The notes beneath the pieces were generated by a model. That model was not told the DNA's origin and ran no database searches. It saw nothing but the letters and a program-made list of their open reading frames with translations. A stretch of 39,939 bases of DNA, taken from IMG/VR virus record IMGVR_UViG_3300035698_010463, positions 1 to 39,939 of that record; one strand, given 5' to 3'. Numbering within the stretch: position 1 is the first letter of the stretch; each line of letters starts with the position of its first letter. The DNA is from a virus. Position numbers and translations under genes: made by a program. This document shows, one piece after another, positions 5,447 through 39,939 of the stretch.

Positions 5447-7048
5447 TTGAAAGAAAAAAACGAATTAGATACACAATTTTTAGCGGAATTAGAAAAAATT
5501 CCGGATGAAGTTTTATCTAAAATTCAGTTTTCTATGCCTTGGCAAGATGGTGGATCTTCAAATGCTACGGATGAAGATGGTTTTCCTGTTGTAGCAGGAA
5601 GTAAGACAGATACTCCGAATACTCGCCTAGCTCTCCAGGAGGAGTGCTGGAGAAAGTTTAATCAAGATCCTTTCTTAAATACGTCTGTTCGAGGTCAAGT
5701 TGGTCGAAAGGCCGGCTGGGGCTTTGAAACTACTTCGGAAAATTGGGAAATACAAGAGAAAATAGATGAAATAGAGCTCGACCCAAGAAATAGACTATAT
5801 ACTTTTTGGCCCAAGTTTATTGGAAGATATGATATAGAAGGAGAGTTATTTTTACTGCTTACTCCTCATTTAGACGGTTTTGTTGAAGTAGACTTTATAG
5901 ATCCAGGAACTATTGTAGAGGGTGGAGATGATGGGTCTGGTATTATTTTTCATCCTAATAAATCTACAATGCCTCTATTTTATAATGTAAAGATAAGCGG
6001 TAATTCGAGAATACAAGCACCTTCTATATTTATAGCAAGATACCCCGAGTTAGTAAGTTCAGTTTATTCACATATAGATTACTCCAGAGGAGACCAACAG
6101 ACTTGTAGGAATAGAAAAGGAGGGTATAAAGCATTTGGCGGTTATTCCAAGTTTATAGTAGCTTGTGATAAAGGATTTATTACTAAAAGAGCCGTCTCCT
6201 ACCTAAGAACAACTCTCCAATGGTTGAATCATTATGAAAACCTTAAAAAATATGAAATAGACCATAAAAAATCTTCAGGTTCCTACCTCTGGACTTTTAG
6301 CTTTAAGGAGCTCAAAGATTTTAGGTTGTGGCTGTCTCTTACAGACGAACAGAAGAAAAAGACAGGCATACTTGCTAAAAAGACTCCAGGTTCTTCCCTT
6401 GTACTTCCCCCAGGAATGGACGCTCAAGTAATAAATCCTAATCTTCCTACTTTATCTGGTGAAGATCACGATATCAAAGAGTTAGTGGCCGCAGGTGTAA
6501 ATGAAGCATCTGATATTATGACAGGTACATCTAAAGGTACTTATGCCTCAGTAAAAGAAACTAGAGGTCCAATGTCAGATAGAACTGCTGACGATGTAGC
6601 TTATCACAAACGATTTCTTGTACATGATTTTTGGAGTAGTGTATTTTTCTTAGCAGGAAAGATATCAGATTTTCCAGAAACTTTTGCTGTTGAGATAGCT
6701 ACTCATTTTGAGAACAAGAAAGTAAAGAAAAAGAAAGTTAAAAGAACGCCTGAAAGACTGATAGATATTTCCTTCCCTGTTTCTGAAACATTAGATCTTG
6801 AAGCTAAGGCTAGGGCATTATTGGGAGTAAAACATGGACCTATGGCAGAACAACTCGGTATACCTAATTCTAGACTTTCTGAAATACTAGGATTAGCAGG
6901 ATACGGACGATATAGACTAGAAAAGGCACTTGAAGATGAGAAATATCCTGAATTAGAGTATAATGTGGATGCCGAGGCCATACAGGAAAGTAAAATTGAG
7001 CCTTCAAAAGAAGTTCGACAGAAATCAAAAGAAAAGGAGAAAAAGTAA
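5447..7048 (+). CDS. Portal protein, 533 aa
   Basis: The portal is the dodecameric ring at the capsid vertex through which DNA passes. The call rests on position (directly after TerL and before the protease), on length, and on portal-like features. These are an N-terminal region describing a non-wing fold (VRGQVGRKAGWGFET), a central segment with LYTFWPKFIGRYDIEGE typical of phage portals, and a long charged C-terminal helical tail (KKKKVKR, KEKEKK). The start is TTG at 5447 with GGAGG (5432-5436) upstream. No ATG near the N-terminus fits better. The stop overlaps the next start as TAATG. Confidence 0.8.
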   Translation: MKEKNELDTQFLAELEKIPDEVLSKIQFSMPWQDGGSSNATDEDGFPVVAGSKTDTPNTRLALQEECWRKFNQDPFLNTSVRGQVGRKAGWGFETTSENWEIQEKIDEIELDPRNRLYTFWPKFIGRYDIEGELFLLLTPHLDGFVEVDFIDPGTIVEGGDDGSGIIFHPNKSTMPLFYNVKISGNSRIQAPSIFIARYPELVSSVYSHIDYSRGDQQTCRNRKGGYKAFGGYSKFIVACDKGFITKRAVSYLRTTLQWLNHYENLKKYEIDHKKSSGSYLWTFSFKELKDFRLWLSLTDEQKKKTGILAKKTPGSSLVLPPGMDAQVINPNLPTLSGEDHDIKELVAAGVNEASDIMTGTSKGTYASVKETRGPMSDRTADDVAYHKRFLVHDFWSSVFFLAGKISDFPETFAVEIATHFENKKVKKKKVKRTPERLIDISFPVSETLDLEAKARALLGVKHGPMAEQLGIPNSRLSEILGLAGYGRYRLEKALEDEKYPELEYNVDAEAIQESKIEPSKEVRQKSKEKEKK

Positions 7049-7455
7049 TGCCTACATATGATTATTCAGGAGAGGTTACAAAAAAGTTCGCTAAGGTGTT
7101 GGTAGCACCCGGTGAAAGATTTGAAGTACCTGACTATTTATCGGATACGGATGTTACTCTTGTTTCAGATTTACCTGCTGTAGATGCTCAAACAGAAGAA
7201 TTTTTTGGAGACGATATTGTAGCTGGTACCGTTTCAGAGGTGACAATTAATCCTAGTTTCCCTAGAGTTACATTAAATAATACTTCAGGCGGAGTTTGTA
7301 GAGTTTATCCTAATGACGATACAGATAAGGCTATAGCTATTGCAGATGACGGAAGTTGGGAATTTGACAATAGAGAACATAAAATAGGTAAGTTAAATTT
7401 ATCCGGTGAAGCTTCTGGTAGAGTAGAGGTCATCGGCGATATGAACACAATATAG
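7048..7455 (+). CDS. Hypothetical structural protein, 135 aa
   Basis: This is a small, acidic, beta-rich protein with no family I can name. It starts at the ATG overlapping the portal stop (TAATG), so its translation is coupled to the portal. Two Ser-Gly-Glu tripeptides occur (YSGEV near the start, LSGEASGR near the end). The C-terminal part (residues 70-130) reads like a compact beta-sandwich with alternating hydrophobic residues. Location between portal and protease suggests a minor head or decoration role, which is inferred only from context. Confidence 0.55.
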   Translation: MPTYDYSGEVTKKFAKVLVAPGERFEVPDYLSDTDVTLVSDLPAVDAQTEEFFGDDIVAGTVSEVTINPSFPRVTLNNTSGGVCRVYPNDDTDKAIAIADDGSWEFDNREHKIGKLNLSGEASGRVEVIGDMNTI

Positions 7456-16052: not shown

Positions 16053-16946
16053 ATGAAAGAGATAGGAGTAGTAATAAATGCAGATACTAGGCCTGGTTAT
16101 TTAGATGCTGAAACATACTGTAGTAAAATAGGAGGTATGGGTGCTAATGGAGCAAGGTCTGTAGATTTTATGGTAGCTAATGTTGTGAATAAAATCCAGT
16201 TTTTTAGAGGATATGATATAGAGGTAACACTTTATATCGATTTTCATACTGCTTTAAATAAACAGGTGGTTGATATTTTTGGCAAGTTTTTGAATGAAGG
16301 TTATGTAGATAATTTAATAATTGCAAAACATACAGATACCTTTAAAGGAAAAAAAATTAGACAATGGCAAGATATAAATTATCTACATGCTTTGACGATG
16401 TCTAAGAGTAAGTATTTGGTTCATTTTGATGCGGATGCTTCTGCTTACAGAAGAGATGATTGTGATATTATCGAGAGATTTAAAAACTGGGTAGATTCAG
16501 GAGAGTATACATATATTTCCTACCCTACAGCTTTTAGTCCTAATGAAGGGGATGTTCCTGGAGAAAATGCTTATCCTAATCCTGGACAAGAAGATAGACC
16601 TGATTATCTTTGGGCTTCAACCAGATTTTTCTTTACCAAAAGAGAGTTTTTAAATTACAATAAATTTGTAGATCTTCTGGATGATAATTATTGGAAAGAA
16701 GCTCATGATGGTAAAGTTTATAGATATCCTAATGTAACAGAGCAGATATTAGGATTTATGGCAGGTTCTGGAGGAGTAATGTATGCCCCTAAAAATGTGC
16801 AGGAGTATATGATATTTTGTTGGCATACATATCATCAAGGAACAATAGATAAACTAGCTCCTTTAGATTACGATAGTGTTCTTAAATATGTAGAAGAAAC
16901 AGGAGGGGTTTGTCCTCCCTGCGATGTTAATGAAAAGAGGTTATAA
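16053..16946 (+). CDS. GT-A glycosyltransferase, 297 aa
   Basis: A DxD motif, HFDADAS (D126, D128), sits after a GT-A-like beta strand. N-terminal MKEIGVVINADTRPG and the conserved segment around EQILGFM are typical of family-2-type transferases with unusual N-termini. It has no signal peptide or membrane anchor, so it would act in the cytoplasm. The start ATG at 16053 lies 10 bases after the previous stop with no strong ribosome binding site. The end overlaps the next gene as TAATG. The acceptor is unknown. Confidence 0.75.
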   Translation: MKEIGVVINADTRPGYLDAETYCSKIGGMGANGARSVDFMVANVVNKIQFFRGYDIEVTLYIDFHTALNKQVVDIFGKFLNEGYVDNLIIAKHTDTFKGKKIRQWQDINYLHALTMSKSKYLVHFDADASAYRRDDCDIIERFKNWVDSGEYTYISYPTAFSPNEGDVPGENAYPNPGQEDRPDYLWASTRFFFTKREFLNYNKFVDLLDDNYWKEAHDGKVYRYPNVTEQILGFMAGSGGVMYAPKNVQEYMIFCWHTYHQGTIDKLAPLDYDSVLKYVEETGGVCPPCDVNEKRL

Positions 16947-17527
16947 TGAAACCTGAAAAAATAAATGGTAAAAATTATGTAGAGCTGTTGTCTTATGGAG
17001 AAGTACATCCTGTAGGGCTTTCTGTTGTAGAAGCTGAAAAACATTTTAGGTGTAAATCTTCTCCCTTGCATGTATTGGAAGTTGGGGTATTAAGAGGACA
17101 TAATGCAGAGGCTATAAATAAATATTTGAGTCCTAATCTTTTAGTTTTAGTCGATCCTTGGGGTTTTTGTAAAGAAACTCATGCTAATAATTGGGTGGAT
17201 ACATGGTTTAGAATACAAAATGATGAGAATATCGTAGTTGTAAAAGCTAAATCAGAAGTAGCTTCCAAGATAATTTCTTTAAATTTTGACTTTATCTACA
17301 TAGACGGAGATCATATAGGTGGAGACCTTTCACACGGAACAGAAGAGGAAGGGATAAGAAAAGATATTAAATTATGGTTGCCTAGAGTCAATGAAGGTGG
17401 TATATTAGCAGGACATGATTACAATTATGATAATATTAAATTAGAAGTGGATACAGTTTTTGGGGGTAGAGTACATTGTTCCCCTCTAATAGAAAACGGA
17501 TCTCAAGAGTGGTGGGTATATGTTTAA
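16946..17527 (+). CDS. Methyltransferase, Methyltransf_24-like, 193 aa
   Basis: The SAM-binding motif ExGxxxG is E45-V-G47-VLR-G51 (VLEVGVLRGHN). The catalytic region reads FDFIYIDGDHIGGD and later GGILAGHDYNYD, the family's Asp/His pattern. The N-terminus (residues 1-40) has no clear domain. The ATG overlaps the preceding stop (TAATG). Together with the 18259 and 20012 genes it forms a paralogous methyltransferase set in this cassette. Confidence 0.8.
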   Translation: MKPEKINGKNYVELLSYGEVHPVGLSVVEAEKHFRCKSSPLHVLEVGVLRGHNAEAINKYLSPNLLVLVDPWGFCKETHANNWVDTWFRIQNDENIVVVKAKSEVASKIISLNFDFIYIDGDHIGGDLSHGTEEEGIRKDIKLWLPRVNEGGILAGHDYNYDNIKLEVDTVFGGRVHCSPLIENGSQEWWVYV

Positions 17528-17548: not shown

Positions 17549-18259
17549 ATGATTTTTAATGAAGTAGCAAGTAATAATTTATTTGATGAGAAGCTTCAAG
17601 GCGAGAGAAACAAGGTACAAACTTGGATTAAAGAAAATAATCTGAGAACGATAGATATAGGAGGGGCAATGGGAGGCTGGGCAGAACCTAACGTTCACGC
17701 TTATTTAGATTGTAATGCCACCTCTTATTTAAGTAATAACTCGGATGCTCTTTTGTTTGACGGTAATATAAGTGATCCTGAAGGGTATATTTCTGTTTTA
17801 AATCATTTAGATGAATACGGGAAATTCGATTTTGCTATATGTACCCAAACACTTGAAGATATAAGGAACCCCTCCTTTGTTTTAGATATGTTGCCCAAAA
17901 TAGCTAAAGAAGGATATATTGATGTACCTTCTAAATATCATGAATTTAGACTTGCAGAAGTTCCCGATACTCTTGAGGAGTGGGGATTGACAGACTATAA
18001 TAGAGGATATACAGGACATCGTTGGGTAATGAATATGGTAAAAGGTGTGTTTGAAATGTATCCTAAATTACCTTTTATTTATAATATAAAGGAGTTGGAT
18101 TGGCTAAAATCGCAAGATCCAGAACCTCTTGAAAAAGCTATGTTGTGTTTTTGGTGGAAAGATAGTATTCCCTGGAGAATAGTTGGAGATGACTTTTTAG
18201 GACCTAATCCTCCTTCTGTTTATAAAATGTATGCTAATGGCTTAAAGAGGGGGCTATAA
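17549..18259 (+). CDS. SAM-dependent methyltransferase, 236 aa (paralogue of 15386-16042)
   Basis: Motif I is TIDIGGAMGGW (D36, G38). The middle block FDFAICTQTLEDIRNPS, then YIDVPSKYHEFRL and HRWVMNMVKG, with YPKLPFI downstream, matches the 15386 gene position for position. The conserved end FWWKDSIPW is also shared. It begins after a 21-nt gap with AAGGAG and a CAATCTTTTAAGGAG leader. It ends in an ATG overlap with the next, broken gene. Whether the two copies act on different substrates is unknown. Confidence 0.8.
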   Translation: MIFNEVASNNLFDEKLQGERNKVQTWIKENNLRTIDIGGAMGGWAEPNVHAYLDCNATSYLSNNSDALLFDGNISDPEGYISVLNHLDEYGKFDFAICTQTLEDIRNPSFVLDMLPKIAKEGYIDVPSKYHEFRLAEVPDTLEEWGLTDYNRGYTGHRWVMNMVKGVFEMYPKLPFIYNIKELDWLKSQDPEPLEKAMLCFWWKDSIPWRIVGDDFLGPNPPSVYKMYANGLKRGL

Positions 18260-18783
18260 TGAAACTTTGGAGAGATGTAGAAGGCTGGTTTAGTTTACAG
18301 GAAGGAAGAAAGCTTTAAGAGTTAGCAAAAGGCAAAATTTGTGTGGAGGTGGGTTCTTACAAAGGTAGATCTACTGTAGCTTTGGCGGAAGTAGCAGAGC
18401 ATGTTCATGCAGTAGATTATTTTAGATCTCATATAAATGGTCAATGCCAGGAAGAGAATTTTACTACATTAAAAGAGTTTAAAGAGAATACTCAAGGAGG
18501 ACCTATAACAATATGGATAGGTTCTTCTTTACATGCATGTAGAAATTTTGATGATAATAGTATAGATTTAGTTTTTATAGATGGATTACATACATACGAA
18601 GCTGTTTTATCAGATATTATTTCTTGGTGGGAAAAGGTAAAAATGGGAGGTGCATATTGTTTTCACGATAGTGATGTTCCTGGAGTACATAGAGCAATAC
18701 ATACAATTTTTAAAAAAGTTGAAGGAAGAGCTAGTGGGTTAACCTATGTTACAAAACAATTTCCAGATATTTGGAATAGATAG
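18259..18783 (+). pseudogene. Methyltransferase with in-frame TAA at codon 20
   Basis: ATG 18259 overlaps the preceding stop and opens MKLWRDVEGWFSLQEGRKL, then a TAA at 18316-18318. The same frame continues as ELAKGKICVEVGSYKGRST with the SAM motif (EVGSYKG), then VFIDGLHTYE and CFHDSDVPG. The whole reads as one Methyltransf_24-like protein of 173 aa plus the internal stop. Related proteins usually have an aromatic residue, often Tyr, at the stop position, so one base change (TAT/TAC to TAA) would explain it. A GTG at 18343 could restart a 146-aa fragment lacking the N-terminus. Nonsense mutation, sequencing error or readthrough are all possible. Confidence 0.75.
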
Positions 18784-18791
18784 GAAATATT

Positions 18792-20015
18792 ATGAATAAA
18801 TCTGATATAACATTAATTTTTCCAAGTAGCCCGTTTCTTTTGAATCAGGTTATGTTTCCTCCTTTAGGGATAATGTATTTAAGTGCCTTTTTAAAAAAAT
18901 GTGGAATGGATGTTCAATGTTTGGATATGGCTTTAGGACATAAACCTGAAGATACAAAGGCAGATATAATAGGGTTATCTTTTACTACACCTCAAAGAGA
19001 CGAAGCTTTTAAATTAGCAAAATATTATAAGAGTATGGGAAAGACAGTTATCGCTGGAGGACCTCATCCTACACATATGCCTGAAGAGTGCTTAGAGAAC
19101 GGTATAGACTTTGCTATTCCAGGCTACGGAGAAGTTCCTTTGTTTAATACAATTAAGCAGATACAAGGAGAGAATACAAGGATGACTACAGGAGATATTC
19201 ATATAGATGCTCTCCCTTTTCCGGATAGAGAATGTCTACCTATTTTTGATTACTTTCAAGAGATAGATGGAAAAATATCTACACCTTTAATAGCTTCACG
19301 AGGCTGTCCTTACGGATGTTCCTTTTGTAGCAAGGTGAGTCCTAAGTTTAGTATTCAATCTGCAAAGAGAACTCTGGAAGAAATAGAGTATTTAAACAGC
19401 ACATATGGTTTTGAATCCTTTTCAATTTATGATGATACTATAGCTGTAGACAAAGACAGATTAAAAATAATGGCAGAGTCTTTAGAAAGTAATGGAAAAG
19501 GCTATAAGTTTAGATGTTTTTGTAGAGCAGATCTTTTAAATGATATAGAAGTTTGCGAGTATTTAGCAAGAATGGGAGTCTTAGATGTAGGTATAGGTAT
19601 TGAGAGTGGTTCAGATTATATCCTTAAAAAGAATATGAAAAGAAGTACAGTAGATATTAACACCCTTGCTATTAAGAATTTACAGAAAGTAGGTATTAGA
19701 GCAAAGGCTTTCTTAATTGTAGGTTTACCGGGAGAAAATGAAGATACAGTAAATGAAACTAAAAGTTGGATAGAAACAGTTAAACCCGACGATATAGCTT
19801 TGTCTGTATTTCAACCATTACCTGGATCTGACATTTTTAAAAGCCCTGAAAAATATGATATAGAATTTAAGTATAATGGTAATCCTATGTGGTACAGAGG
19901 TACTCCTGGAGAGTACAAACCGTCTACAAGAACTAAAGAGTTATCAACGGAAAGAATTATTCAATTAAGAGATAATTTAGAGAACGATTACAAAAGGAAG
20001 GAGCTACTTCAATGA
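18792..20015 (+). CDS. B12-binding-type radical SAM enzyme, 407 aa
   Basis: Residues about 5-130 form a cobalamin-binding-like Rossmann domain (start TLIFPSSPF, PPLGIMYLSAFLKK, IIGLSFTTPQRDE, VIAGGPHPTHMP). The classical DxHxxG cobalamin motif is not evident, so B12 use is uncertain. The radical SAM domain carries the CxxxCxxC iron-sulfur motif at C172, C176 and C179 (GCPYGCSFC). Later landmarks are GIGIESGSDYILK and FLIVGLPGENEDT. The class B/BchE-like architecture usually performs methylations or radical rearrangements on unreactive carbons. It lies in the glycan cassette, 4-bp overlap with the next gene. The substrate is unknown. A radical SAM gene among virion structural genes is unusual. 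Confidence 0.85.
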   Translation: MNKSDITLIFPSSPFLLNQVMFPPLGIMYLSAFLKKCGMDVQCLDMALGHKPEDTKADIIGLSFTTPQRDEAFKLAKYYKSMGKTVIAGGPHPTHMPEECLENGIDFAIPGYGEVPLFNTIKQIQGENTRMTTGDIHIDALPFPDRECLPIFDYFQEIDGKISTPLIASRGCPYGCSFCSKVSPKFSIQSAKRTLEEIEYLNSTYGFESFSIYDDTIAVDKDRLKIMAESLESNGKGYKFRCFCRADLLNDIEVCEYLARMGVLDVGIGIESGSDYILKKNMKRSTVDINTLAIKNLQKVGIRAKAFLIVGLPGENEDTVNETKSWIETVKPDDIALSVFQPLPGSDIFKSPEKYDIEFKYNGNPMWYRGTPGEYKPSTRTKELSTERIIQLRDNLENDYKRKELLQ

Positions 20016-20398
20016 GTACTCGAAATGATTTAGTTAGAAAACACTATACTCAAATACCAGGAGAAATTTCTGAGGTAGAAATTAATAAATTGAGAGATAT
20101 GGCCAGAGGTAAAGTTTGTTTGGAAATAAACGGACAGTTAGGAAAAGAAACTGTTATTTTGGCTCAAACTGCAAGGAAGGTTGTGGTTGTTGTATCTGAA
20201 GATAACATAGATGCTTTAAGAGAAAACATTAAAGGGTACGGTAATATTGAAATATATATAGGTGATATATATGAAACCGCAGCAGGTTTACAATCTGAAT
20301 TTTTTGATTTAATTTATGCAGATAATTATAAGCAAGCAGATTATTTTGCATCTAAGCTTAAAAAAGACGGAGTTCTTATAGCAAGGGGTGTAATATGA
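20012..20398 (+). CDS. Degenerate methyltransferase-like protein, 128 aa
   Basis: The protein begins by ATGA overlap with the radical SAM gene and has AAGGAAGGAG upstream. GKVCLEINGQLGKE corresponds to the SAM motif of the 18259 paralogue (GKICVEVGSYKGRST), but the first Gly of ExGxxxG is Asn (E-I-N). FFDLIYADNYK replaces the usual acidic motif. It is short compared with the family and ends where the other copies continue. It may be inactive, a regulatory subunit of another methyltransferase, or a partial duplicate under decay. Confidence 0.6.
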   Translation: MSTRNDLVRKHYTQIPGEISEVEINKLRDMARGKVCLEINGQLGKETVILAQTARKVVVVVSEDNIDALRENIKGYGNIEIYIGDIYETAAGLQSEFFDLIYADNYKQADYFASKLKKDGVLIARGVI

Positions 20399-22743: not shown

Positions 22744-23340
22744 ATGACTATTCGAAGTGGACCAACTACTAAAAATAGCGGTAGTGTAGTTATTGGTTTG
22801 ATGCAGATTCGCATTGGACCATCAGCCGCAAATATCGCTGAAACCGAAGCAGTTCTGGAAACAGGAGATTCCCTAGGTGCTATGGCTAGCACTAAATATA
22901 TGGGAAACGTAGACTGGTGGAAACTTGAATCAGGATATACCCTTCAGACAGATGCATTTTTTCCTATTAGGGAAGAGTCTGCCATTGAGTGTGCATTTCA
23001 GGAACAGAGTCCGTATAATATAGTACTTGCTCATGGACTTGATCCTAGTGGAGAATATCCTAATCAGTGGTCTGGAGAAATTAAACTTGGAGCTAGATCT
23101 GCACCTGAATATCTAAGATGTGAAGCTATTAGAACTTATCCTGATCAGACTCACAAAATGTACATTATTTACCCGAGATCTCAGATTACTTCTTCTGTAG
23201 AGATTGAAGATAGTAAAGAAGAAGGAGCGAGCACTCCTATTACAATCACTGCTACTCCTGCTGATAGTGGAGTAACAGGCGGAAACGTGGTCTGGGATAA
23301 TATGCCTCTTGGCAGAATTTACTGGGATCCGATAACTTAA
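22744..23340 (+). CDS. Major tail tube protein, 198 aa
   Basis: The length, position before the tail chaperone and beta-rich composition are those of the siphophage tube protein, which stacks as hexameric rings. Internal landmarks are STKYMGNVDWW, the GLDPSGEYPNQWSGEIKLG loop with two Ser-Gly-Glu tripeptides and a C-terminal beta stretch (ITITATPADSG). The start ATG 22744 has AAAGGAAT upstream. Confidence 0.75.
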   Translation: MTIRSGPTTKNSGSVVIGLMQIRIGPSAANIAETEAVLETGDSLGAMASTKYMGNVDWWKLESGYTLQTDAFFPIREESAIECAFQEQSPYNIVLAHGLDPSGEYPNQWSGEIKLGARSAPEYLRCEAIRTYPDQTHKMYIIYPRSQITSSVEIEDSKEEGASTPITITATPADSGVTGGNVVWDNMPLGRIYWDPIT

Positions 23341-27575: not shown

Positions 27576-28234
27576 TGAGTAATGAAATATTTAAATGGCA
27601 ACCACAAATGGTGTCTCCGTCTTCCGATGTTTCTTTTTACACAGTAGCATCGGAATTTGAAAATGGAATGACACAAAGAGGCTTGATTTCTTCAAGAGAA
27701 CGTAATAAACTAGTATTTACATTTAAGCATGCCTTACTCACACCAGGGGAGGAGACCACTTTGAAAAATGAGATACTAGTCTTTTTTAAAGCTCGACAAG
27801 GTGCTTTCGATAATTTCTTCCTCCCTTCCTGGAAACTTGAAGCTGTTACATTGGAAGCTATCACAGTCGGAGACAATACTTTTAAACTATCTAAGGACCC
27901 TTCTTATTTAGGATTTTCCAAAACAATTTATGATGCAGGGAATTACTTATACTTTTGTAGGAAGTTTGCTCGAGGATTTGAAGTAGATGGTACTGTACAT
28001 GAAATAAATAGAATAACGGATTGGGAACAGGATGGAGATGATTGGGTAGTTACAGTAGAAGATAATTTCACCAATAGCTACCCTATTAATATATTTGTTC
28101 AGAAAGCGTATAAGGCTAATTTTGCAACTTCTACATTAAAGGGTGTGGCAGAAATACCTTATGGAATAGAGTATCAAATAGAATTTATAGAAGATCTAGC
28201 ACAAGCATATCAAACTAATTTTGGGTTAACATAA
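27575..28234 (+). CDS. Distal/minor tail protein (gpM position), 219 aa
   Basis: The gene lies directly after the tape measure, the place of lambda gpM or DUF2460-like tip proteins. The N-terminal MSNEIFKWQPQMVSPSSDV, then HALLTPGEETTL and FFKARQGAFDNFFLPSW, and a closing beta strand with GIEYQIEFIED, fit that tip family. The start overlaps the tape measure stop (TAATG), and its end overlaps the next gene. Confidence 0.65.
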   Translation: MSNEIFKWQPQMVSPSSDVSFYTVASEFENGMTQRGLISSRERNKLVFTFKHALLTPGEETTLKNEILVFFKARQGAFDNFFLPSWKLEAVTLEAITVGDNTFKLSKDPSYLGFSKTIYDAGNYLYFCRKFARGFEVDGTVHEINRITDWEQDGDDWVVTVEDNFTNSYPINIFVQKAYKANFATSTLKGVAEIPYGIEYQIEFIEDLAQAYQTNFGLT

Positions 28235-29187
28235 TGAGAGACGTACCTTTAAATTTTTTAAGCGAGAAGAATAAGCTACAATATAAGCTTATAGACTTAA
28301 TTACTATGGAAGCATCTCATGTTTATATGGCTTATGCTCAGGATGATTCTACTACTACTGAAATAGTAGTAGATGATACTGTTAAAGAGCTATTAAATGA
28401 GTCAGGGTATAATTTTATAGATTCAGGAGAAGGTTATTGCTGGACAGCATCTTTTGAAGATGGAATAAATGTAGGTGCTTTAAGACAGATTATAGATTAT
28501 GATGATACTGATGGGGTGTTTACATTATCTGTTCCTTTAGATGAAACTCCTGTAACTGACTCTGATAGAATAAGAATAGCTAAAAACATTTTCCTTACTA
28601 ATAGAAATACTCCTGTAGACTTTTACTTGCCTGACGAGTCTTATGGGGAGGATGTAGAGATAAAATATATGCCTTTCCCTATGTCAATAACGCCCATAGG
28701 AACTAATTCTAAAGGCGAAGTTATGACGTTAGACGTAGCATTGTCCAGTGTAGATAAAGTCATATCTAATGCTATTCTGTTAGCAGAAGGGTTACAATCA
28801 AACAGGGTTAACCATTTAAGGGTTTTCAGTAATACATTAGACCAGGGAAAAGAGTACTGTATGAAAGACTCCTCTTATATAGATACTGTAACTATCGATA
28901 ATACACAGATAAAATTCTCTTTAGAAAGTAAGTATAATATTGTAGATGTACAGATACCTCAAAGAATATATACAAGAGATTTTTGTGGATTTAGATTTAA
29001 GAGTGCATCTTGTGGATGGACTACAAGTGTAGGAACTTATGTTCGTAAAAATGCAGAAGGAGATACAGTTTTACACTATCCTGAATATGACCCTAATACT
29101 TGTGATCATACTTTATATGGTGCTAATGGATGCCAAGCTCATAATAATACACGGAGGTTCGGAGCATTTCCAGCTCTAGCTAAGTAA
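28234..29187 (+). CDS. gpL-like minor tail protein with Fe-S-type cysteines, 317 aa
   Basis: Four cysteines, C251, C260, C290 and C300, sit in the C-terminal domain: DFCGFRF, SASCGW, NTCDH and NGCQAHNN followed by RRFGAFP. This is the conserved cluster of the lambda gpL family, whose members bind an iron-sulfur cluster. The N-terminal part is DUF2163-like, beta-rich (residues 1-230). It follows the gpM-position gene with TAATG overlap and precedes the gpK homologue, as in lambda. Confidence 0.75.
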   Translation: MRDVPLNFLSEKNKLQYKLIDLITMEASHVYMAYAQDDSTTTEIVVDDTVKELLNESGYNFIDSGEGYCWTASFEDGINVGALRQIIDYDDTDGVFTLSVPLDETPVTDSDRIRIAKNIFLTNRNTPVDFYLPDESYGEDVEIKYMPFPMSITPIGTNSKGEVMTLDVALSSVDKVISNAILLAEGLQSNRVNHLRVFSNTLDQGKEYCMKDSSYIDTVTIDNTQIKFSLESKYNIVDVQIPQRIYTRDFCGFRFKSASCGWTTSVGTYVRKNAEGDTVLHYPEYDPNTCDHTLYGANGCQAHNNTRRFGAFPALAK

Positions 29188-32500: not shown

Positions 32501-35500
32501 ATAGAGTTTGATGAAGTAATGACAGGCTCTTCCATATTTGCTAGAAAAGAAGATGGTACTTGGACTAGAGCCGTAGTTGAAACAATAGTCAGGAACATAC
32601 CTAGTTTAGTAACTGAGGATTCTCAAGCCGATCTTACTTTTTCAGCTAAAGCATATCCTACAGCCGAAGAGAGTAGTTATTGGACAAACGGATTACCTTG
32701 TAGTAACCATAGTTCTGATTATTGGAAACAATATGAAATGTCGGAGAAAAGGCATAGATTAGATCTTGTTATAGATAATACCTCTTCTGCTATAGATTGG
32801 TTGAAAACAATATGCGATACTTTTAGAGCATTTCCTATATGGATTGGGGGAGGTTATAGACCTATAGTAGATAAACCTCAAGATCCTGTAACAACAATAG
32901 GTATGGGAAATATTCTAAAAGGTTCTTTAAGTATTAGCTATACACCTATATCTAAATCATATAATTTATTAGAAGGACAGTTTATAAATAGAGAGAATCA
33001 ATTTAGCAGGGATATAAGACAAGTTGTTGATGCAGATGTAGATGTTGCTACAGCTACAGATGTTCTAAATACTATAAGGAAGAAAACTGTTAAGATGTTC
33101 GGAGTTACAAGACCTACTCAGTTAGTAAGAGATTTAGCTTATGGTCTTTTGAATTATAAATTAAATAAAAAAATAATTACTTTTTCAATGGGTATAGAAC
33201 ATCTTGGGATGATAGCAGGAGATGTATTTACTTTCTCCCATTATTTACTTATAGGCGATAAGAAAAGTGGTAGACTTTTAGGTTATGGTACAGACGGGGG
33301 AGAGCATGTAATTATAGATACAGATGTCTCTGCTTTAACTGAACCTCTACAGCTCGTTGTTCGACTTACTATAGGCAAAGGTTTTTGTGATAAATGTCAA
33401 AAATATATACTTAATGAGGACGGTACTTTAGATATTACAGCTACAGAATGTAGCTGCGGTTATCCTATAGATGGTGAGGAGATAGCTCAGGAATATGTAG
33501 TTTCTTCTGTGGATGGACAAAAGATATATTATACTCCGTTTGGAAATATTAAACCTAAAGCTTATGATCCTTATGAAATAGGAGAAAGTACAGAAGTAAC
33601 GAATAAATATAGAGTTATGTCTATTGTTCCTAATGAAGCTCGACAAGCCTCTATTATGGCTATAGAATATACTGATTCTGTTTTTGGTCAAATAAGACAG
33701 TTGGTGAATGGGGGAAGAGCAGGATATGATGAGCCTAAGTTAGCGGCTCAATCAGATAGAGTTAAGCCTTTAAATTCTTTACCTGTAGCTTTACCTCCTA
33801 AAGATGTACTTGTCTATCCTTACGATTTAGAAAAAGGTCAAATAAAGGTAACTTTTTGGAAACCAGATAATTTATCTTCTTCTTTGACTTATTTAGGCGG
33901 AGAAATAAAAATATTAAGTGTAGATGGTGCGGAAGAAGAAAGTAGAAGAATTTATTTAGGTTTTAAAGGTGCTTTATTTACATTACCTTCCAAGACGGAA
34001 ACATATACGATTGAAGTTAGAGCCGTATATATGTTTAATAAGGTTTCGGAAGTTGTTGTTTCAGAGTTTAATTTCAGTACTCTAAAAGAAGAAGATCTCT
34101 TAGTAGACCCAAGACCTGCTAATGTAACAGGATTAAGATTATCCTATAAGTGTAGACCTTGGGAAGAGAAGTTTAATTCTAATTATAATTATTTTGCTAC
34201 AGATTATATTCATTTACTTTGGGATAGGATTGCAAGATGTATGGATGACGATCCTAATCCTTTTAATAAGAATATGAATATAATAGCAGGCTATAAACTT
34301 AAAATAGAATTATTAGATAATTTTGGTAATTGGTATTTGTCTAAAGATTTAGAGTTAGGTGCAAGTGATAATGAAAAGAGATTAGAGTTTCACGATCTAC
34401 TTCAAGATACAGGAGATGTTTCTTTAGCTGTAGCTTTAAGTAAAATAAATGGTCTTAGAGCTACTGTTATAGCTTACACAGAATTAGGATTTGAAAGTAA
34501 ATTGCCTGCTGTAGAAGAATTTTATCCTTATACTCCGTTTTCACCTAAAGGTGTGAAGGTATTTGAATTTCTAGGTAGTGTATTTATTAATTGGGAACAT
34601 CAGGATGATTGGGAAAATGTAAAAGAATTCCATGTTAGCCTTAGAGTTACAAGGACTGGTTCTCTTATAGATCCTAATGGTGCTGAATGGACTACTCCTG
34701 AACCTGTAGTTACTACCAAAACACATTGTTGTATAAATATTCCTCCTGATGTGAGGACTACTTTCACACCTTTAGGTTTTTTATGGGGCTGTAGATTTGA
34801 ACCTACTATTAAAACTATTACTAAAGTAGGAGGATCCTATTCTACTAGAGTGCTTCCTGCTACAACTGTAGATCCCAATCATTCTTCTCCTAACGATTGG
34901 GATGAAGATATACCTTCTGCTACTGAATCACAGAAAACTATACCTGACTATATGCTGGAAAATCCTGCAACAAATATTATAGTATATGATCTTGTTTATA
35001 GATTTCATGGCTTTTTTGGAATAATACCTACAGTAGCATACCAAAGAGATAATAATTTTTCATCTTTTGAAGATAGGCAGAAATTAATAGACGGCTATTT
35101 GGGTACGGGCATAACTTACACGGGCCTTGACTGGGGAAGTACTAAGAATGTAGTGAGAATTACTTATCAGTCGCCTACTGAAGAGGAGTTTAGTCGTACA
35201 ACATTTAATGTAGACCAAGCCTGTAGAATATGGATAGAATATTTAAACCAAGACGAAAACGGAGACTACATAAATGGAGACTGGGAATACTTAGGAGGAG
35301 ATGCTTCACATGAATTAGATGCCGATGATAAAATGACAGAATACGCTACCAGTACTTTAGCAGAAGATAAATATTGGGAAGTAAGCTCTGGTACTAATGA
35401 AGCTACTTTTCCTCTACCTCTTAAAAATAAATATATAAGGTTAATAGTATCCCCTATAGGTGCAGATACTGTAACCGTTAATGAAGTAAGATTTATAAGA

Positions 35501-36835
35501 GTAGGAACATTTGAAGAACTTGAAGTAAATTTAATTAAGAATCAGGGATGGGATTCTGGAGATCATAAGTTTTATTTGGATGCTAATGCTCAAGGATTAA
35601 TTTCAGGAGAACCTGTACTATGGTCAGCAGATGCAGGTATAGGGGGAACAAGAGATAATCCTTTAATAAAACTTACACCAGAAGGAATGAATGTTATTTC
35701 TACTGAGGCTATTACAGTACAAAGTAGTGGTGAAGTAGGAACGAGCGGAGAGACTTGGCCTTTATTACCTGAGTTCTATTTAGGTAAATGGGCTACTACA
35801 GTACCTTTCTTTTCTGATGATAGAGATAATATTTCCTGGGGAACAGGAGAATTTAAATTTTCAGACGGTACAATTTTTAATATAGACTCAGGAAGCGATA
35901 CTATAGATGCAGACGGTAGTAGCTATGTTTATTTCGATGCTAATGAAATTACCACTCAGTTCTATGCTACTAACGATTTTACGGATTTAGTATTGTTGGG
36001 GAGAGTTTCCATTGCAAGGGGGTTGTATAATACAGATTCAGAGCAAGTGGCTACTATTATAGGTGATAGTACTTTAATGCCAACCATCACAGAAACCGTC
36101 TTAGGTGAAAACTGTATCTCAACCCAACAGTTACAGGCTAATTCTGTTACTGCTGGAGAAATACAAGTGAATTATTTGAGTGCTATAGTTAGTGATGTAG
36201 GAACATTAATAGCAGGGCTAATAAAGTCAGAATCTGAAGATGTTTGGTTTAATTTAGATAGCGGAGAGATATATACCAATAAAGAAGGTGGATTTAGAAT
36301 TGGCGGGTCTGGAGGAATGATTTTAGAAGAAGGCGGGGATATCACATTTGAAAATTGTTCTACATTAAATGCTGAGACTAGCTTTTTACAAATTTATCCT
36401 TATGATTCAGGAGAACAAGCACTTCTTATAGGGCGTGGAAATACCCCTGCTAAACCTTGGAGAAAGGTTTTAATAGATACAGTAGAGTGTAGTTTCTACT
36501 TAGACGATGATGGAGATGGTTTAGATTTAAATTCGATTTATGATATAGATATAACTTCATATTTAGGAAAAATAGATTTAGAATGTAGTACAGAATTTGG
36601 AATTGTTAGTTTATACAATGAAGTTAGGATAGAGGCCGCTAAAGAAACATACGATTTTATAGACCCCGATGTAGCTTTAGCTCATGCAGGAGGGGATATT
36701 GTTTTAATACCTGGAGCTGGTAGCGGTGAAAAACTTTATATGTATCTTCCTACTAGTCAAGGAGGTAGCACTAAAGAAATGGTTGAAGTATGGTTTAGTG
36801 ATTTAACAAATACCATAAAAGCTGAAAAGATATAA
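29576..36835 (+). CDS. Tail tip protein, gpI-gpJ fusion, 2419 aa
   Basis: The first ~190 residues match lambda gpI: a ubiquitin-like beginning, hydrophobic segments at about 82-152, then the conserved SPTYGWNITPTAREG junction. Thereafter the protein is a gpJ-type central hub for host recognition and DNA passage. gpJ itself is usually about 1100-1200 aa, so this fusion is more than twice as long. A CxxC-CxC zinc-ribbon insert lies at C1271, C1274, C1292, C1294. Ser-Gly-Glu tripeptides are absent in the first ~2000 residues but occur six times in the last ~420 (ISGEP, SSGEV, TSGET, DSGEI, DSGEQ, GSGEK). The end continues into fibre-like beta repeats. Confidence 0.85.
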   Translation: MPKLTLVKNPLVSEDKVTFISKDTKFIPFIKKFLSVNPAYRSLLDSSSFILRVNNIKIDDPLRALNLKLSNSDELVLYPNIQQAGFWAAVWNGIQAGAEIATTVGAEVAPAAGAGGTLSVPGTLGVYIGYGAIILGEFALIAGASYGINALFAPSMSSPSGPTEDSPTYGWNITPTAREGIPISVVYGEHMVGGNSIITAKEYTIYSPYRWMDAAEESRRIQVTKDIPFCNLFAVGMRKPCRGVRFDCREMRTPFLFFSYRFWTKAGQAYFWEEFFDYIEDEKEGLAKTIASTSDYNRLTKTVSTAITKKIQSKAQDFNDKLGRIINDPNQSLNETDVRAIIYELFADAQEINYKREDFVYNADNQNNAEIIEDGLYYASKKAQQELTDIVWNWHDPTTSGKFYSEVFYSNPYADENLGSYIVGCVYINEKGMHYDISVDGEDETTQEIKAKKMSDYAVTLAKAYEPRYQSEEDRIRIIDGNKHQPDTRYEQNLHQILGLSEGPCAGIKEIFVNGSPSDTVPEFGAEFFRGDKVQKLDVGDSDASTYDDYNHASIFHGRSEELKTFGSYSEFTTTENFDVDNVLIEVQSSIYMVSSGGHVRPIQQKDQNFKFGIQIGFEGISDFGYLLATDTYPSQGVLEEGRFLYFENELNGQFSANPVVSVWPCLPTRDFLFEDATLDQMEAMALRFEGQLLGLCAWLGIKPEGISYSHSQYKRSSNYRELVLNSIRESMIDYFLVQKVRMKVRVTRLVGAYDSYDFNRSGAFDFTVKGYQEVTYTGQDYIDTALLAINAKATSESSASVPEIKSVLKGKLVLVPKLFANITGDSEERVYHEFAWYDEDVKSYRSYLHNGKKCRYARNANTNQIEWVEEWSSNPVWCLYDLLLNRRYGLGNYTAQYNVPVDWFIEAAEYCDTLVPDGTVRYAEDTIKTTLTDTDSDFFRRGNPYYDENLDGLDKAGQGVFGQHLADSLNRFNEIEFDEVMTGSSIFARKEDGTWTRAVVETIVRNIPSLVTEDSQADLTFSAKAYPTAEESSYWTNGLPCSNHSSDYWKQYEMSEKRHRLDLVIDNTSSAIDWLKTICDTFRAFPIWIGGGYRPIVDKPQDPVTTIGMGNILKGSLSISYTPISKSYNLLEGQFINRENQFSRDIRQVVDADVDVATATDVLNTIRKKTVKMFGVTRPTQLVRDLAYGLLNYKLNKKIITFSMGIEHLGMIAGDVFTFSHYLLIGDKKSGRLLGYGTDGGEHVIIDTDVSALTEPLQLVVRLTIGKGFCDKCQKYILNEDGTLDITATECSCGYPIDGEEIAQEYVVSSVDGQKIYYTPFGNIKPKAYDPYEIGESTEVTNKYRVMSIVPNEARQASIMAIEYTDSVFGQIRQLVNGGRAGYDEPKLAAQSDRVKPLNSLPVALPPKDVLVYPYDLEKGQIKVTFWKPDNLSSSLTYLGGEIKILSVDGAEEESRRIYLGFKGALFTLPSKTETYTIEVRAVYMFNKVSEVVVSEFNFSTLKEEDLLVDPRPANVTGLRLSYKCRPWEEKFNSNYNYFATDYIHLLWDRIARCMDDDPNPFNKNMNIIAGYKLKIELLDNFGNWYLSKDLELGASDNEKRLEFHDLLQDTGDVSLAVALSKINGLRATVIAYTELGFESKLPAVEEFYPYTPFSPKGVKVFEFLGSVFINWEHQDDWENVKEFHVSLRVTRTGSLIDPNGAEWTTPEPVVTTKTHCCINIPPDVRTTFTPLGFLWGCRFEPTIKTITKVGGSYSTRVLPATTVDPNHSSPNDWDEDIPSATESQKTIPDYMLENPATNIIVYDLVYRFHGFFGIIPTVAYQRDNNFSSFEDRQKLIDGYLGTGITYTGLDWGSTKNVVRITYQSPTEEEFSRTTFNVDQACRIWIEYLNQDENGDYINGDWEYLGGDASHELDADDKMTEYATSTLAEDKYWEVSSGTNEATFPLPLKNKYIRLIVSPIGADTVTVNEVRFIRVGTFEELEVNLIKNQGWDSGDHKFYLDANAQGLISGEPVLWSADAGIGGTRDNPLIKLTPEGMNVISTEAITVQSSGEVGTSGETWPLLPEFYLGKWATTVPFFSDDRDNISWGTGEFKFSDGTIFNIDSGSDTIDADGSSYVYFDANEITTQFYATNDFTDLVLLGRVSIARGLYNTDSEQVATIIGDSTLMPTITETVLGENCISTQQLQANSVTAGEIQVNYLSAIVSDVGTLIAGLIKSESEDVWFNLDSGEIYTNKEGGFRIGGSGGMILEEGGDITFENCSTLNAETSFLQIYPYDSGEQALLIGRGNTPAKPWRKVLIDTVECSFYLDDDGDGLDLNSIYDIDITSYLGKIDLECSTEFGIVSLYNEVRIEAAKETYDFIDPDVALAHAGGDIVLIPGAGSGEKLYMYLPTSQGGSTKEMVEVWFSDLTNTIKAEKI

Positions 36836-36859
36836 ACAATCTTTAAAAGGAGAAAATTA

Positions 36860-37057
36860 ATGGAAAAAAATGAAATGTTGACAAAAGAAAAGATGCAGGC
36901 TACATTAAGTACAGTAGTATCGCAATATTTGAATGATTTTCTAAATAGGAATCATTCAAATAAAGTAACTGAGGAGCTTGTTGTAGGTTTAGGACAGAAG
37001 ATAATTTTAAAATTGACTCCTGCCCTTGAACCTTGGATACCTAAAAAGGAGGATTAA
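36860..37057 (+). CDS. Hypothetical small protein, 65 aa
   Basis: The ATG is preceded by AAAAGGAG in an ACAATCTTTAAAAGGAG leader. The protein is helical and amphipathic (QATLSTVVSQYLNDFLN) with a C-terminal charged PKKED. It lies between the gpI-J fusion and the tail fibre, with two bases between its stop codon and the next start. No family is recognised. An assembly or fibre chaperone role is possible from place only. Confidence 0.5.
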   Translation: MEKNEMLTKEKMQATLSTVVSQYLNDFLNRNHSNKVTEELVVGLGQKIILKLTPALEPWIPKKED

Positions 37058-37058
37058 A

Positions 37059-39939
37059 ATGATTTATAAGGCTGGAACTGTAACATTAACGCAGGGTTCT
37101 ACAACTGTAATCGGAGTGGATACAGAATTCTTAAAATACGTTAACAGTTTCGGTATTTTTAGAAGAGTTGGTGATTCCTCTAGATATATGGTTACTAAAG
37201 TAATAAGTAATACGGAATTAAGATTAGCTAATCCTTATCAAGGAGTTACTATCTCCTTAGCTACTTACTCTATAAATATGAATAGAACAGCTAATATATC
37301 TCTGCCTCTTTTAAATGCTAATCTTCCTGACCCTACTAATACTATTAATGATGCTTTAGTTACTATAGATAGATATGCAGGAACATTTTTAGACTTTGAT
37401 GAGTTAAGACAAGTTTCATACTCCGGAGAAGATGGGTTTTTTATTAGAGGGGATTTCCATGAAAGTCAGCTCACAGAAGGTAGAGCTTTAAAATTTCTAG
37501 GAGGTACAGGAGAGCTTATAACATATGATTATGTAGAGGATAATTCTTTCTTTGATGCTGTAATTTCTACCACTCCTACAGATGAAACTATTGACTATAT
37601 GAGTCCTACTAGCGGTGAAGTATTGATTGAAGAGTGGGATGTTATAGATAATACTACTAAAGATTCATATGCTTTTGTTAAAACTTCTTCACCAGGTAAC
37701 GATAAGTTTACTATATCTGGGGAAGTTATAGGGCTTGCCTGGGCTTCTAACGATGTAATTAAGTGTTATGGGCATACTATGGGCATAGCTGAAATAGATA
37801 CAGATCTTTCAGAATCTTCTGTTCCTGTTACAAATGTTTCAGGAGAGTCTATTGACTTAACAGAATTTAAAACAAACGATATACTTTATAATTACAATAG
37901 AGGAACTTCAAGAACTATTATATCCGGGGAATCTGCAATTTTAACTACTGCAAATTCTACAGATGATTGGGCGGAAGGAGATAGAGTTTATACTGTTAAA
38001 GCTGATATAAAAACTGCTCAAGCTAACCTCAGTTCTTCTATATCTTTAGTAGAGTACGGAGCTCAAACTCAAATAGGAGTAGATAGTGTAAAAGAATCTC
38101 ATATAGATTTCGGATTAGGTGCTGAGCAAATAAGTGGAGCGAATATACCAGTTTCTATAGATGCTTTAGACGCCACTAATGTAAGCGATGGGCTAACAGA
38201 AATTGAAGCAGAACTTGCAAATCATCTTATAACGGGAGAAGCTCATGTAGGAAACGATTCTTCCTTTGAAGATGACGGTCAAGGCCCTTATGCTCTAACT
38301 TCTGTTCATATGCAGGATGCTGTTAATGAAATTAAATCAAGAATAAATTCTAGTGCTTATATACAAGGAGTTGTAGATGATGCTGATGATGAACTTAGTT
38401 TTTATGCTTATGATTTCATATCTTATGCTGAAGATTTCTTTAGCGGTGAGTGGTGGGTAAGAGCAGAGTCAGGTTCTAATATAGGTGAAGTAAGAAGATT
38501 AGACGATTTTAACCAACCTTCAGGAGAGTTTATATTTGCAAGCGGGGAAACATTTACCTTTACTATGTCGGAAGGAGATATTTTTTCTACTATTTCTCAA
38601 GCAGGGGGTGGAGGGAGCGGAACTTCTGTACATAATGATTTGACAAGTATACAGGGAGGTACTACTACCGAAAGGTATCATTTAGATTCTGGGGAATATG
38701 CCACTATCCCAGATATAGTAACTAACACAGCAGATATCGCTACTAATGCTTCTGACTTAATAGACCATGAGGCTTTGGTTAATGAACACATTGATTGGAC
38801 TGATCATGAAGTTTCTGGGGTAGGAGAGGGCATTGCTCTGGGCGTTACAGGCACTACCAATGGGCAAGGTATACTTTCTGCCTTTACCTTAGACTATTAT
38901 CCTGAAGAGCTTGTTTCTGGGACTGATGATATTGTAGCGGGACTTTTTTTCGCTGATTATGGTATAACTGAATATACTTGGCTGTGCCATGCTAACTTAA
39001 GTGATGACGCAGATTATGGTGTCGCTTTCGGGATCGGCTTACACGGAGAAGGACAGAGGGGGATTCTTCTTGAGCAGTCCTACGCCACAAACGATAATGG
39101 TGAAGGTGCTTGTATCCATATGGTTGATAAGTTTAAGACCTCCGATCCCGGCGTTCTCCCTTGGATAGATATTTATGAAGGGGAATATGACCAAGCTACA
39201 CATACATGGTCTGATAAAGAAAACATTTTTAAGATTGAAAGAGACGGACAAATCACAGGGAGGTCAATGCAACTTATTGGATGTACTGGTGAGAATACTG
39301 TCTTAACTGTTGGTAATATTACGGGACAAAAATTAGAAAATGTTGGCAGTACGTCTGGGCTACTTGTTACAGCAGTTCATGAACCAATATCGATATCTTC
39401 TTCTAATAGAACAGGGATAAATGGATTTAATTATATTAGGGGTACTAATTATTATACTGAAGCTAATGCAAGGGGGTTACTTTTTGGTAATGCAACTATT
39501 GTGGAGGATGGGGGTAGTGGATATTTAGATGCTACAGGAGCAGAAATTTTTGGTGGGGAAGGTGTCTCTGTTGTAATAGACCCTTTCCCTCCCTTCCCCT
39601 CTTATTTTACTGTAAATAATATATGGGGAATCCAAGTTAGGTCTGCTCTAGAACAAGTTATTATAGGGGGTAATGCAACCACTGCGTTACTAAAGGCTTC
39701 TCTGTCAGCATGTTCTGGGGAGGAGGTTATGTTAGACATAGAGGAACCAACCTTGGGCTTAGCTGGCAACTATCAAGTTGTATTACAAGGTTCTGGGGAA
39801 GGTGCTGGTATTTGGTTTGATAGTGCGGAACGTATTTATTCAGACGGTACAAACCTATGTGTTGCCCCTTCTGTTGTAGCAGAAACAAATATAAGCGTAG
39901 GAACGGATTCACCTTCAGCAGGGTTTAGAGGTACAGGAG
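37059..39939 (+). CDS. Tail fibre protein, partial (C-terminus beyond the window)
   Basis: The ATG at 37059 has AAGGAGG (37046-37052) and the frame stays open through the last base, so at least 960 residues are encoded with no stop. The N-terminus (MIYKAGTVTLTQGSTTVIG) is a phage virion attachment-type domain. Residue ~525 onward has HNDLTSIQGGTTTERYHLDSGEY, listed here as HNDLTSIQGG then TTERYHL, a repeat commonly found in tail fibres. The remainder is beta-rich with many Gly/Ser. Eleven Ser-Gly-Glu tripeptides occur, using varied codons. This would be the host-contact fibre; receptor unknown. Confidence 0.8.
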   Translation, partial: MIYKAGTVTLTQGSTTVIGVDTEFLKYVNSFGIFRRVGDSSRYMVTKVISNTELRLANPYQGVTISLATYSINMNRTANISLPLLNANLPDPTNTINDALVTIDRYAGTFLDFDELRQVSYSGEDGFFIRGDFHESQLTEGRALKFLGGTGELITYDYVEDNSFFDAVISTTPTDETIDYMSPTSGEVLIEEWDVIDNTTKDSYAFVKTSSPGNDKFTISGEVIGLAWASNDVIKCYGHTMGIAEIDTDLSESSVPVTNVSGESIDLTEFKTNDILYNYNRGTSRTIISGESAILTTANSTDDWAEGDRVYTVKADIKTAQANLSSSISLVEYGAQTQIGVDSVKESHIDFGLGAEQISGANIPVSIDALDATNVSDGLTEIEAELANHLITGEAHVGNDSSFEDDGQGPYALTSVHMQDAVNEIKSRINSSAYIQGVVDDADDELSFYAYDFISYAEDFFSGEWWVRAESGSNIGEVRRLDDFNQPSGEFIFASGETFTFTMSEGDIFSTISQAGGGGSGTSVHNDLTSIQGGTTTERYHLDSGEYATIPDIVTNTADIATNASDLIDHEALVNEHIDWTDHEVSGVGEGIALGVTGTTNGQGILSAFTLDYYPEELVSGTDDIVAGLFFADYGITEYTWLCHANLSDDADYGVAFGIGLHGEGQRGILLEQSYATNDNGEGACIHMVDKFKTSDPGVLPWIDIYEGEYDQATHTWSDKENIFKIERDGQITGRSMQLIGCTGENTVLTVGNITGQKLENVGSTSGLLVTAVHEPISISSSNRTGINGFNYIRGTNYYTEANARGLLFGNATIVEDGGSGYLDATGAEIFGGEGVSVVIDPFPPFPSYFTVNNIWGIQVRSALEQVIIGGNATTALLKASLSACSGEEVMLDIEEPTLGLAGNYQVVLQGSGEGAGIWFDSAERIYSDGTNLCVAPSVVAETNISVGTDSPSAGFRGTG

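Follow-up and report, generated by a model that had tools for sequence, protein, structure and literature searches.

Ser-Gly-Glu is a candidate O-glycosylation sequon that follows a GT4-GT9 glycosyltransferase gene in uncultured tailed phages

A strict Ser-Gly-Glu (SGE) tripeptide was enriched in mostly external virion proteins of tailed phages, and the enrichment was tied to a gene for a fused GT4-GT9 glycosyltransferase. We studied a window of 39,939 bases, the whole of the IMG/VR virus record IMGVR_UViG_3300035698_010463, which was read as the late region of a tailed phage. It encodes terminase, portal, protease, capsid and neck proteins, a modification cassette, tail proteins, a gpJ-like protein and a fibre (Table 1). 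We propose that these phages encode a system for protein O-glycosylation with S-G-E as its acceptor sequon, a reading to which we assign a probability of roughly 0.85.

The 40 genes of the window (12,763 aa) contained 30 SGE, compared with 4.64 expected from the composition of each protein (Poisson p = 4e-15). SGE was by far the most over-represented tripeptide, the next being YLS (p = 4e-5). An earlier reading made from this DNA alone (the sequence-only reading) had listed 11 SGE in the 960-aa fibre with fewer than one expected, six in the end of the gpJ-like protein, four in the neck protein, two each in the 135-aa, jelly-roll and tail-tube proteins, one in the portal, and none in the capsid protein and tape measure. 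All of these counts were correct, and the shuffling it had suggested placed SGE above the controls. The fibre averaged 0.68 SGE in shuffles and none of 10,000 matched the real count; the same held for the neck protein and for the last 420 residues of the gpJ-like protein, where six SGE stood against 0.28 in shuffles. In the gpJ-like protein, all six copies fell within residues 2010-2383, and SGE was absent from the first 1999 residues. The pairs in the 135-aa, jelly-roll and tail-tube proteins were matched by 13, 14 and 61 of 10,000 shuffles, respectively, and the portal copy was at chance level. Two single copies had been overlooked, one in a cassette protein (16053-16946) and one in a minor tail protein (28234-29187). 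The enrichment itself is real, and it spans the whole late region, beyond the fibre and the gpJ end to which the coordinates given with the earlier reading were limited.

Relatives were picked blind to SGE by scanning IMG/VR with the capsid protein, which returned 65 loci. Mapping the window genes on these loci gave two groups: in relatives with the GT4-GT9 gene (GT+) it lay directly 3' of the neck gene, whereas in relatives without it (GT-) the neck gene adjoined tail genes. Pooled and with duplicates removed, the GT+ relatives held 71 SGE against 14.2 expected and the GT- relatives 27 against 31.4. The sequence-only reading had held that it would be contradicted if relatives without the cassette were enriched to an equal degree; they were not. 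Across 75 capsid-distinct loci, the SGE z-score split the 52 GT+ from the 23 GT- loci with an area under the curve of 1.00. SGE ranked first among the tripeptides tested there, and the next in rank (YMT, LSW and QEG) were pieces of the enzyme itself. The proposed substrates were thus enriched in SGE only when the enzyme was encoded.

The association also held when the enzyme was the query. A profile search yielded 80 IMG/VR loci and two more from genome bins; the loci retrieved with the enzyme contained 501 SGE against 112.7 expected. Three of them showed no excess, two being fragments that lack virion genes (L112, L144) and one having its virion genes outside the fetched stretch (L143). Scanning with the GT4 domain then brought in 10 further phages, all SGE-enriched, most with three to five SGE in the neck protein. 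One distant phage (G057) encoded the full enzyme and no detectable capsid homologue; in its late genes SGE (13 against 3.19) ranked above every other tripeptide, and a single 243-aa protein adjoining its gpJ held six copies. Searches with the enzyme sequences of G057 and of a second distant phage, G044 (described below), returned only themselves, and the gpJ query found no relative in IMG/VR. Among cultured phages, neither the late region nor the capsid protein gave a match; the GT4-GT9 query found only Tetrasphaera phage TJE1, at 24%, which had no SGE excess (2 against 4.35). Two contigs of the phage family had been binned into bacterial metagenome-assembled genomes, L151 with Melioribacter (DYLN01000029.1) and L152 with an alphaproteobacterium (MNUG01000004.1). 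These were the only host hints found, and they may reflect binning errors.

The motif was strict. In the window, its permuted forms (GSE, ESG, EGS, SEG, GES) and near forms (TGE, SGD, NGE, AGE) occurred at about expectation or below. In the capsid-chosen GT+ relatives, the observed and expected counts were 4 and 12.3 for TGE, 8 and 13.6 for SGD, 6 and 14.2 for GSE, and 3 and 14.2 for SEG; SAE and CGE were not enriched either. Other tripeptides enriched in single relatives (IYP, CYC, CQD, LDT) were rejected as virion-wide motifs, being local repeats rather than spread across virion proteins. For LSN, no single gene with at least four copies was found.

SGE was concentrated in particular virion proteins. 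The GT+ neck homologues held 213 SGE against 5.7 expected, with the motif in 95% of 66 distinct sequences, compared with three SGE in the 18 GT- sequences. The jelly-roll protein, whose gene was not found in GT- relatives, carried SGE in all 47 distinct GT+ sequences (90 against 2.5). For the tail tube, 97% of the GT+ homologues carried the motif (34 against 2.5), while only one did among 17 GT- homologues (6%). All four GT+ homologues found for the 135-aa protein had it (8 against 0.2). The portal (7 against 9.5), protease, capsid, tape measure and enzymes of GT+ phages were at chance. An AlphaFold model of the neck protein showed a double stopper fold, and neck and stopper proteins, those of lambda and SPP1 among them, matched both halves (Z 9.6-9.9); there was no PDB match at a Foldseek E below 0.001, and the stopper assignment comes from the aligned Z of 9-10 per half. 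The model of the jelly-roll protein (predicted local distance difference test score 87) resembled head decoration proteins, fibres and tumour necrosis factor-type trimers (Z about 7-8.5); its best matches lay at Z about 8, and chains of phage capsids also matched (7eel_H, Z 7.5; 8h89_J, Z 6.8). On this model it is probably a head decoration or spike protein. Together with the neck protein, tail tube, gpJ C-terminus and fibre, it is expected to lie on the outside of the particle.

Individual sites switched with the enzyme. At residue 26 of the neck protein, GT+ phages have N-V-S-G-E-Y and GT- phages N-V-T-G-E-Y. At the tail-tube site (position 23071 in the window), the GT+ form HSGEIxLG corresponds to H[TLYS]G[SANQT] in GT- phages, for example H-T-G-S, H-T-G-A or H-L-G-N. 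The sequence-only reading had suggested looking at the conservation of each site in related phages, and the outcome differed between proteins: the neck positions were largely constant among GT+ phages, but the gpJ C-terminal sites turned over. At most one or two of about a dozen gpJ sites were common to the window and two relatives (G001 and G058), although all three proteins hold several.

The GT4-GT9 enzyme of the window contains a Glycos_transf_1 domain (PF00534, E = 1.4e-14, residues 192-376, above the Pfam cut-off) and the EX7E motif, which place its first half in family GT4. Its second half belongs, at the family level, to GT9 (PF01075, Glyco_transf_9, E = 4.3e-6, residues 566-633, 26.7 bits against a cut-off of 22). 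EX7E was present in most GT4 homologues, with the second Glu replaced by Gln in a minority, although the pattern was also used in retrieving them. The cassette 3' of the GT4-GT9 gene ranged from about 0.5 to 9 kb. Two sets of loci (L025/L073 and L146/L151) had essentially the GT4-GT9 gene alone and retained SGE: the L146 record held 22 against 4.1 expected, and the L073 record 17 against 4.0. The records of L146, L073 and L025 (two plus one near-identical) lacked GT2 genes and any further GT1-type gene; the GT2 gene of the window is thus missing from these minimal-cassette relatives. Since these relatives keep SGE with little more than the fusion enzyme, the variable cassette genes appear to be dispensable for the motif, the GT4-GT9 gene alone being needed as judged from gene content. 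The sequence-only reading had connected a possible Ser-O-glycosylation sequon with the glycosyltransferase cassette; the connection is well supported and can be narrowed to the GT4-GT9 gene.

Two further phages pointed to the half of the enzyme involved. G044 (the L068 record) has only a homologue of the GT4 half, elsewhere in its genome; SGE nevertheless led the tripeptides in its late genes (12 against 3.36), and the conserved tail-tube site is kept. L054 has only a GT9-like match, and had no SGE where 2.2 were expected. Because the former is SGE-rich and the latter is not, the GT4 half is the best candidate for the part that would read the sequence.

Several points weigh against the proposed sequon. 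On the tree of capsid proteins, the GT4-GT9 gene switched between present and absent only about four times, and two of these switches lay on well-supported branches. Few contrasts are thus independent, and the pooled p-values look stronger than they are; the argument is carried by the complete split between GT+ and GT- loci, by the residue switches at matched sites and by the two distant phages that repeat the pattern. In independent pairs, SGE in the neck protein and tail tube followed the GT state or did not differ, and never went the opposite way, although the pairs were too few for a sign test. Many contigs are fragments, and absence of the GT gene is not certain in all of them. Three related GT+ loci (L132, L139, L149) had no SGE in the neck protein, though they had it elsewhere, and one GT- neck type (L023/L071) has one. 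Across the GT+ phages, neck SGE mostly occupy one shared set of four positions, which is partly due to descent. The second EX7E Glu is Gln in some enzymes, including that of the minimal-cassette locus L025. Finally, the system is known from the sequences of uncultured phages, and its glycan is a predicted one.

We considered four other explanations. An unlikely one is that SGE serves another modification or binding, such as serine phosphorylation or attachment to a carrier protein, through an unseen gene co-inherited with GT4-GT9, while the enzyme acts elsewhere. S-x-E is a kinase motif in eukaryotes, many of the phages are seen as partial contigs, and the chemistry at SGE is read from sequence comparison, all of which favour it. 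However, no kinase was annotated in the window cassette, and in the minimal-cassette records the only glycosyltransferase found in a search for two families was GT4-GT9, directly 3' of the neck gene. G057 and G044 moreover encode the enzyme (in G044, its GT4 half) in another part of the genome and still show SGE as their top late tripeptide.

That SGE is a favoured beta-turn or loop sequence of beta-rich virion proteins, free of any modification, had been offered in the sequence-only reading as the simpler alternative; we consider it very unlikely. SGE does fit turns, and the T-G-E of GT- phages at the neck site indicates that a turn is ancestral there. Yet the GT- relatives, with the same folds, had no excess, and this contrast largely refutes a pure beta-turn origin. 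The explanation fails at the homologous sites, where GT- phages keep an x-G-x turn as TGE (neck) or as TGS, TGA or LGN (tail tube). Of the four neck sites, the model places three within strands rather than turns, and equally good turns (SGD, SGN, TGE) were not similarly enriched.

Slighter still is the chance that SGE is an inherited signature of the clade and its tie to the enzyme an accident of descent. The shared neck sites and the few changes of GT state fit such a history, but 10 of 11 gpJ C-terminal sites were not common to the three relatives compared and the motif nevertheless persisted, non-homologous proteins carry SGE in different phages, SGE followed the GT state in the independent pairs tested, and it recurs in the distant G057. 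As a by-product of a DNA-level signal (recombination, packaging or ribosome-related), SGE has practically no chance: about a third of the window copies read TCAGGAGAR, like a ribosome-binding core, but in the relatives the Ser (both AGY and TCN), Gly and Glu codons within SGE were used at background rates and 444 SGE were in frame, whereas the remaining five frames held 2-10 each, which refutes it. The codons also vary among the window copies, and the earlier argument for selection at the protein level stands.

Under the proposed glycosylation, the GT4 domain would use a nucleotide sugar to glycosylate S-G-E at the Ser hydroxyl, forming an O-glycosidic bond. The acceptors would be exposed loops and strands of the head decoration, neck and tail-tube proteins, the C-terminus of the central tail protein and the fibre. 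Extension and decoration of the glycan may fall to the GT9 half and to the enzymes of the variable cassette (GT2, methyltransferases, B12-binding radical S-adenosylmethionine (SAM) enzyme), so that each phage would have its own surface glycan on a constant attachment code. Because the code is constant and the cassette varies, phages can probably change the surface glycan while the attachment stays. The result would be a glycan coat on the virion, for shielding or for surface interaction. The benefit might be, as a guess, a shield against binding or enzymes, or adhesion; this guess is guided by the shielding role that PMC12619734 cites for virion glycosylation in mycobacteriophages.

Mycobacteriophage virion glycans reportedly sit at the C-termini of the capsid and tail tube (Freeman et al. 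2023, doi 10.1016/j.chom.2023.05.028, as cited in PMC12619734). As far as that account describes them, the systems share phage-encoded glycosyltransferases (here GT4-GT9 and GT2 in the late region) with a proposed role in decorating head and tail proteins of a siphophage. They differ in that S-G-E is internal, in the neck, tail tube, decoration protein and fibre, with the capsid protein free of it; since the C-terminal placement is absent, we did not file the present system under the mycobacteriophage type. No relative of the GT4 half was found in any mycobacteriophage, and the literature searched contained neither a defined sequon for phage virion glycosylation nor a report of an S-G-E glycosylation code.

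The likenesses to other systems are partial. The GT4 half resembles the virus-encoded chlorovirus protein B736L (PDB 3oy2, sequence match E = 2e-8); what sets the phage enzyme apart is its fused GT9 domain and its link with a strict tripeptide of the virion proteins. The GT9 half resembles ADP-heptose heptosyltransferases (profile matches to WaaC, WaaF and 3tov). TibC-type GT9 enzymes (TibC/BAHT protein heptosyltransferases) glycosylate protein Ser; unlike them, the GT9 half here is dispensable for SGE in G044. In Bacteroides, O-glycosylation follows the sequon D-(S/T)-(A/I/L/V/M/T) in the periplasm, through a membrane enzyme that accepts Thr. The phage system likewise has a three-residue code readable in the sequence, but its enzyme is predicted to be soluble and apparently requires exactly Ser, Gly and Glu. 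Eukaryotic proteoglycans are attached at Ser-Gly with a nearby acidic residue; this likeness is one of analogy only, and homology is not expected.

Other relatives carried other kinds of repeats. In a set of GT- phages (L020, L022, L027, L028, L031, L032, L037, L042, L044, L048, L052), runs of Thr and Ser form the C-termini of the capsid, neck and major tail proteins (SSSTTTTTTA is one example); such runs were absent from the GT+ relatives. These tails look like an alternative, C-terminal glycosylation code, much closer than the SGE system to the mycobacteriophage type as that source describes it. When the GT- relatives, seen as partial contigs, were searched for one gene that accompanies the Thr tails, no candidate stood out. 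The neck homologue of L066 has C-terminal Ser-Pro repeats (PSHSPSSSPSPSSSPS...) where those phages have Thr runs, which might be a third surface code. A third capsid clade (L054, L056, L059, L064, L067, L072) had neither SGE enrichment nor Thr/Ser tails on the neck and capsid proteins. In G072 (locus L178), positions 39549-40184 encode a very cysteine-rich, 212-aa protein of Cys-Gln-Asp/Gly/Asn repeats (CQDCQDCQNCQGC...).

The window cassette contained two Methyltransf_23-like and two Methyltransf_24 genes (Table 1), a pairing that suggests duplication or several methylation steps. The B12-binding radical SAM enzyme has close homologues in related cassettes (54-76% identity, e.g. L075-L078, L082, L110); in a phage late cluster, it is possibly a glycan-modifying enzyme. 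The cassette protein encoded at 16053-16946 had no significant Pfam match.

Table 1. Features of the window, with the positions of SGE codons and the basis of each assignment
Feature	Position	Strand	SGE positions	Basis or remark
Portal	5447..7048	+	6455-6463	chance level; 2227 of 10,000 shuffles reach 1
135-aa protein after the portal	7048..7455	+	7066-7074, 7402-7410	SGE in GT+ homologues
Jelly-roll protein after the major capsid protein	10633..11121	+	10915-10923, 10951-10959	AlphaFold model and structure matches
Neck (stopper-fold) protein, 203 aa	11962..12573	+	12037-12045, 12259-12267, 12280-12288, 12487-12495	structure matches
GT4-GT9 fusion glycosyltransferase, 683 aa	12598..14649	+		proposed SGE writer, via GT4 half
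GT2 glycosyltransferase, variable cassette	14652..15389	+		PF00535, E = 1.1e-6
Methyltransferase (Methyltransf_23), variable cassette	15386..16042	+		PF13489, E = 4e-9
Cassette protein	16053..16946	+	16497-16505 (residue 149)	open reading frame and motif
Methyltransferase (Methyltransf_24), cassette	16946..17527	+		PF13578, E = 2.3e-10
Methyltransferase-like protein, cassette	17549..18259	+		PF13489, E = 3e-4, under curated cut-off
Methyltransferase (Methyltransf_24), cassette	18343..18783	+		PF13578, E = 3.6e-19
B12-binding radical SAM enzyme, cassette	18792..20015	+		PF04055, E = 6.6e-22; PF02310, E = 2.1e-17
Short methyltransferase-like protein, cassette end	20012..20398	+		phrog_15516, E = 3.2e-4
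Major tail protein (tail tube)	22744..23340	+	23047-23055, 23071-23079	phrog_476, E = 2.8e-4
Minor tail protein	28234..29187	+	28423-28431, not significant alone	phrog_18, E = 5e-9
gpJ-like central tail protein, 2419 aa (gene 29576-36835), C-terminal SGE part	35603..36730	+	starts 35603, 35726, 35744, 36260, 36407, 36722	
Tail fibre, 960 aa, open at contig end	37059..39939	+	starts 37422, 37611, 37716, 37839, 37923, 38442, 38520, 38541, 38688, 39714, 39792	phrog_1980 tail fiber, E = 2.9e-11

Phage virion glycosylation was known before from a few cultured mycobacteriophages; comparative genomics of uncultured tailed phages now adds a candidate recognition rule, exactly S-G-E, and a probable enzyme. 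We lean towards the wider view that a large family of uncultured tailed phages uses a portable three-residue O-glycosylation code, written by a single GT4 enzyme and served by interchangeable finishing genes, and that a sister clade swapped it for C-terminal Thr/Ser tails on the capsid, neck and tail tube. Glycosylation of the phage particle would become predictable from sequence, the coated particle surfaces would be indicated, and the finishing genes would vary around a constant attachment code. If this is true, both the modified sites and the enzyme that writes them would be readable from the genome alone, and the enzyme together with an SGE tag could serve as a minimal tool for protein glycosylation.

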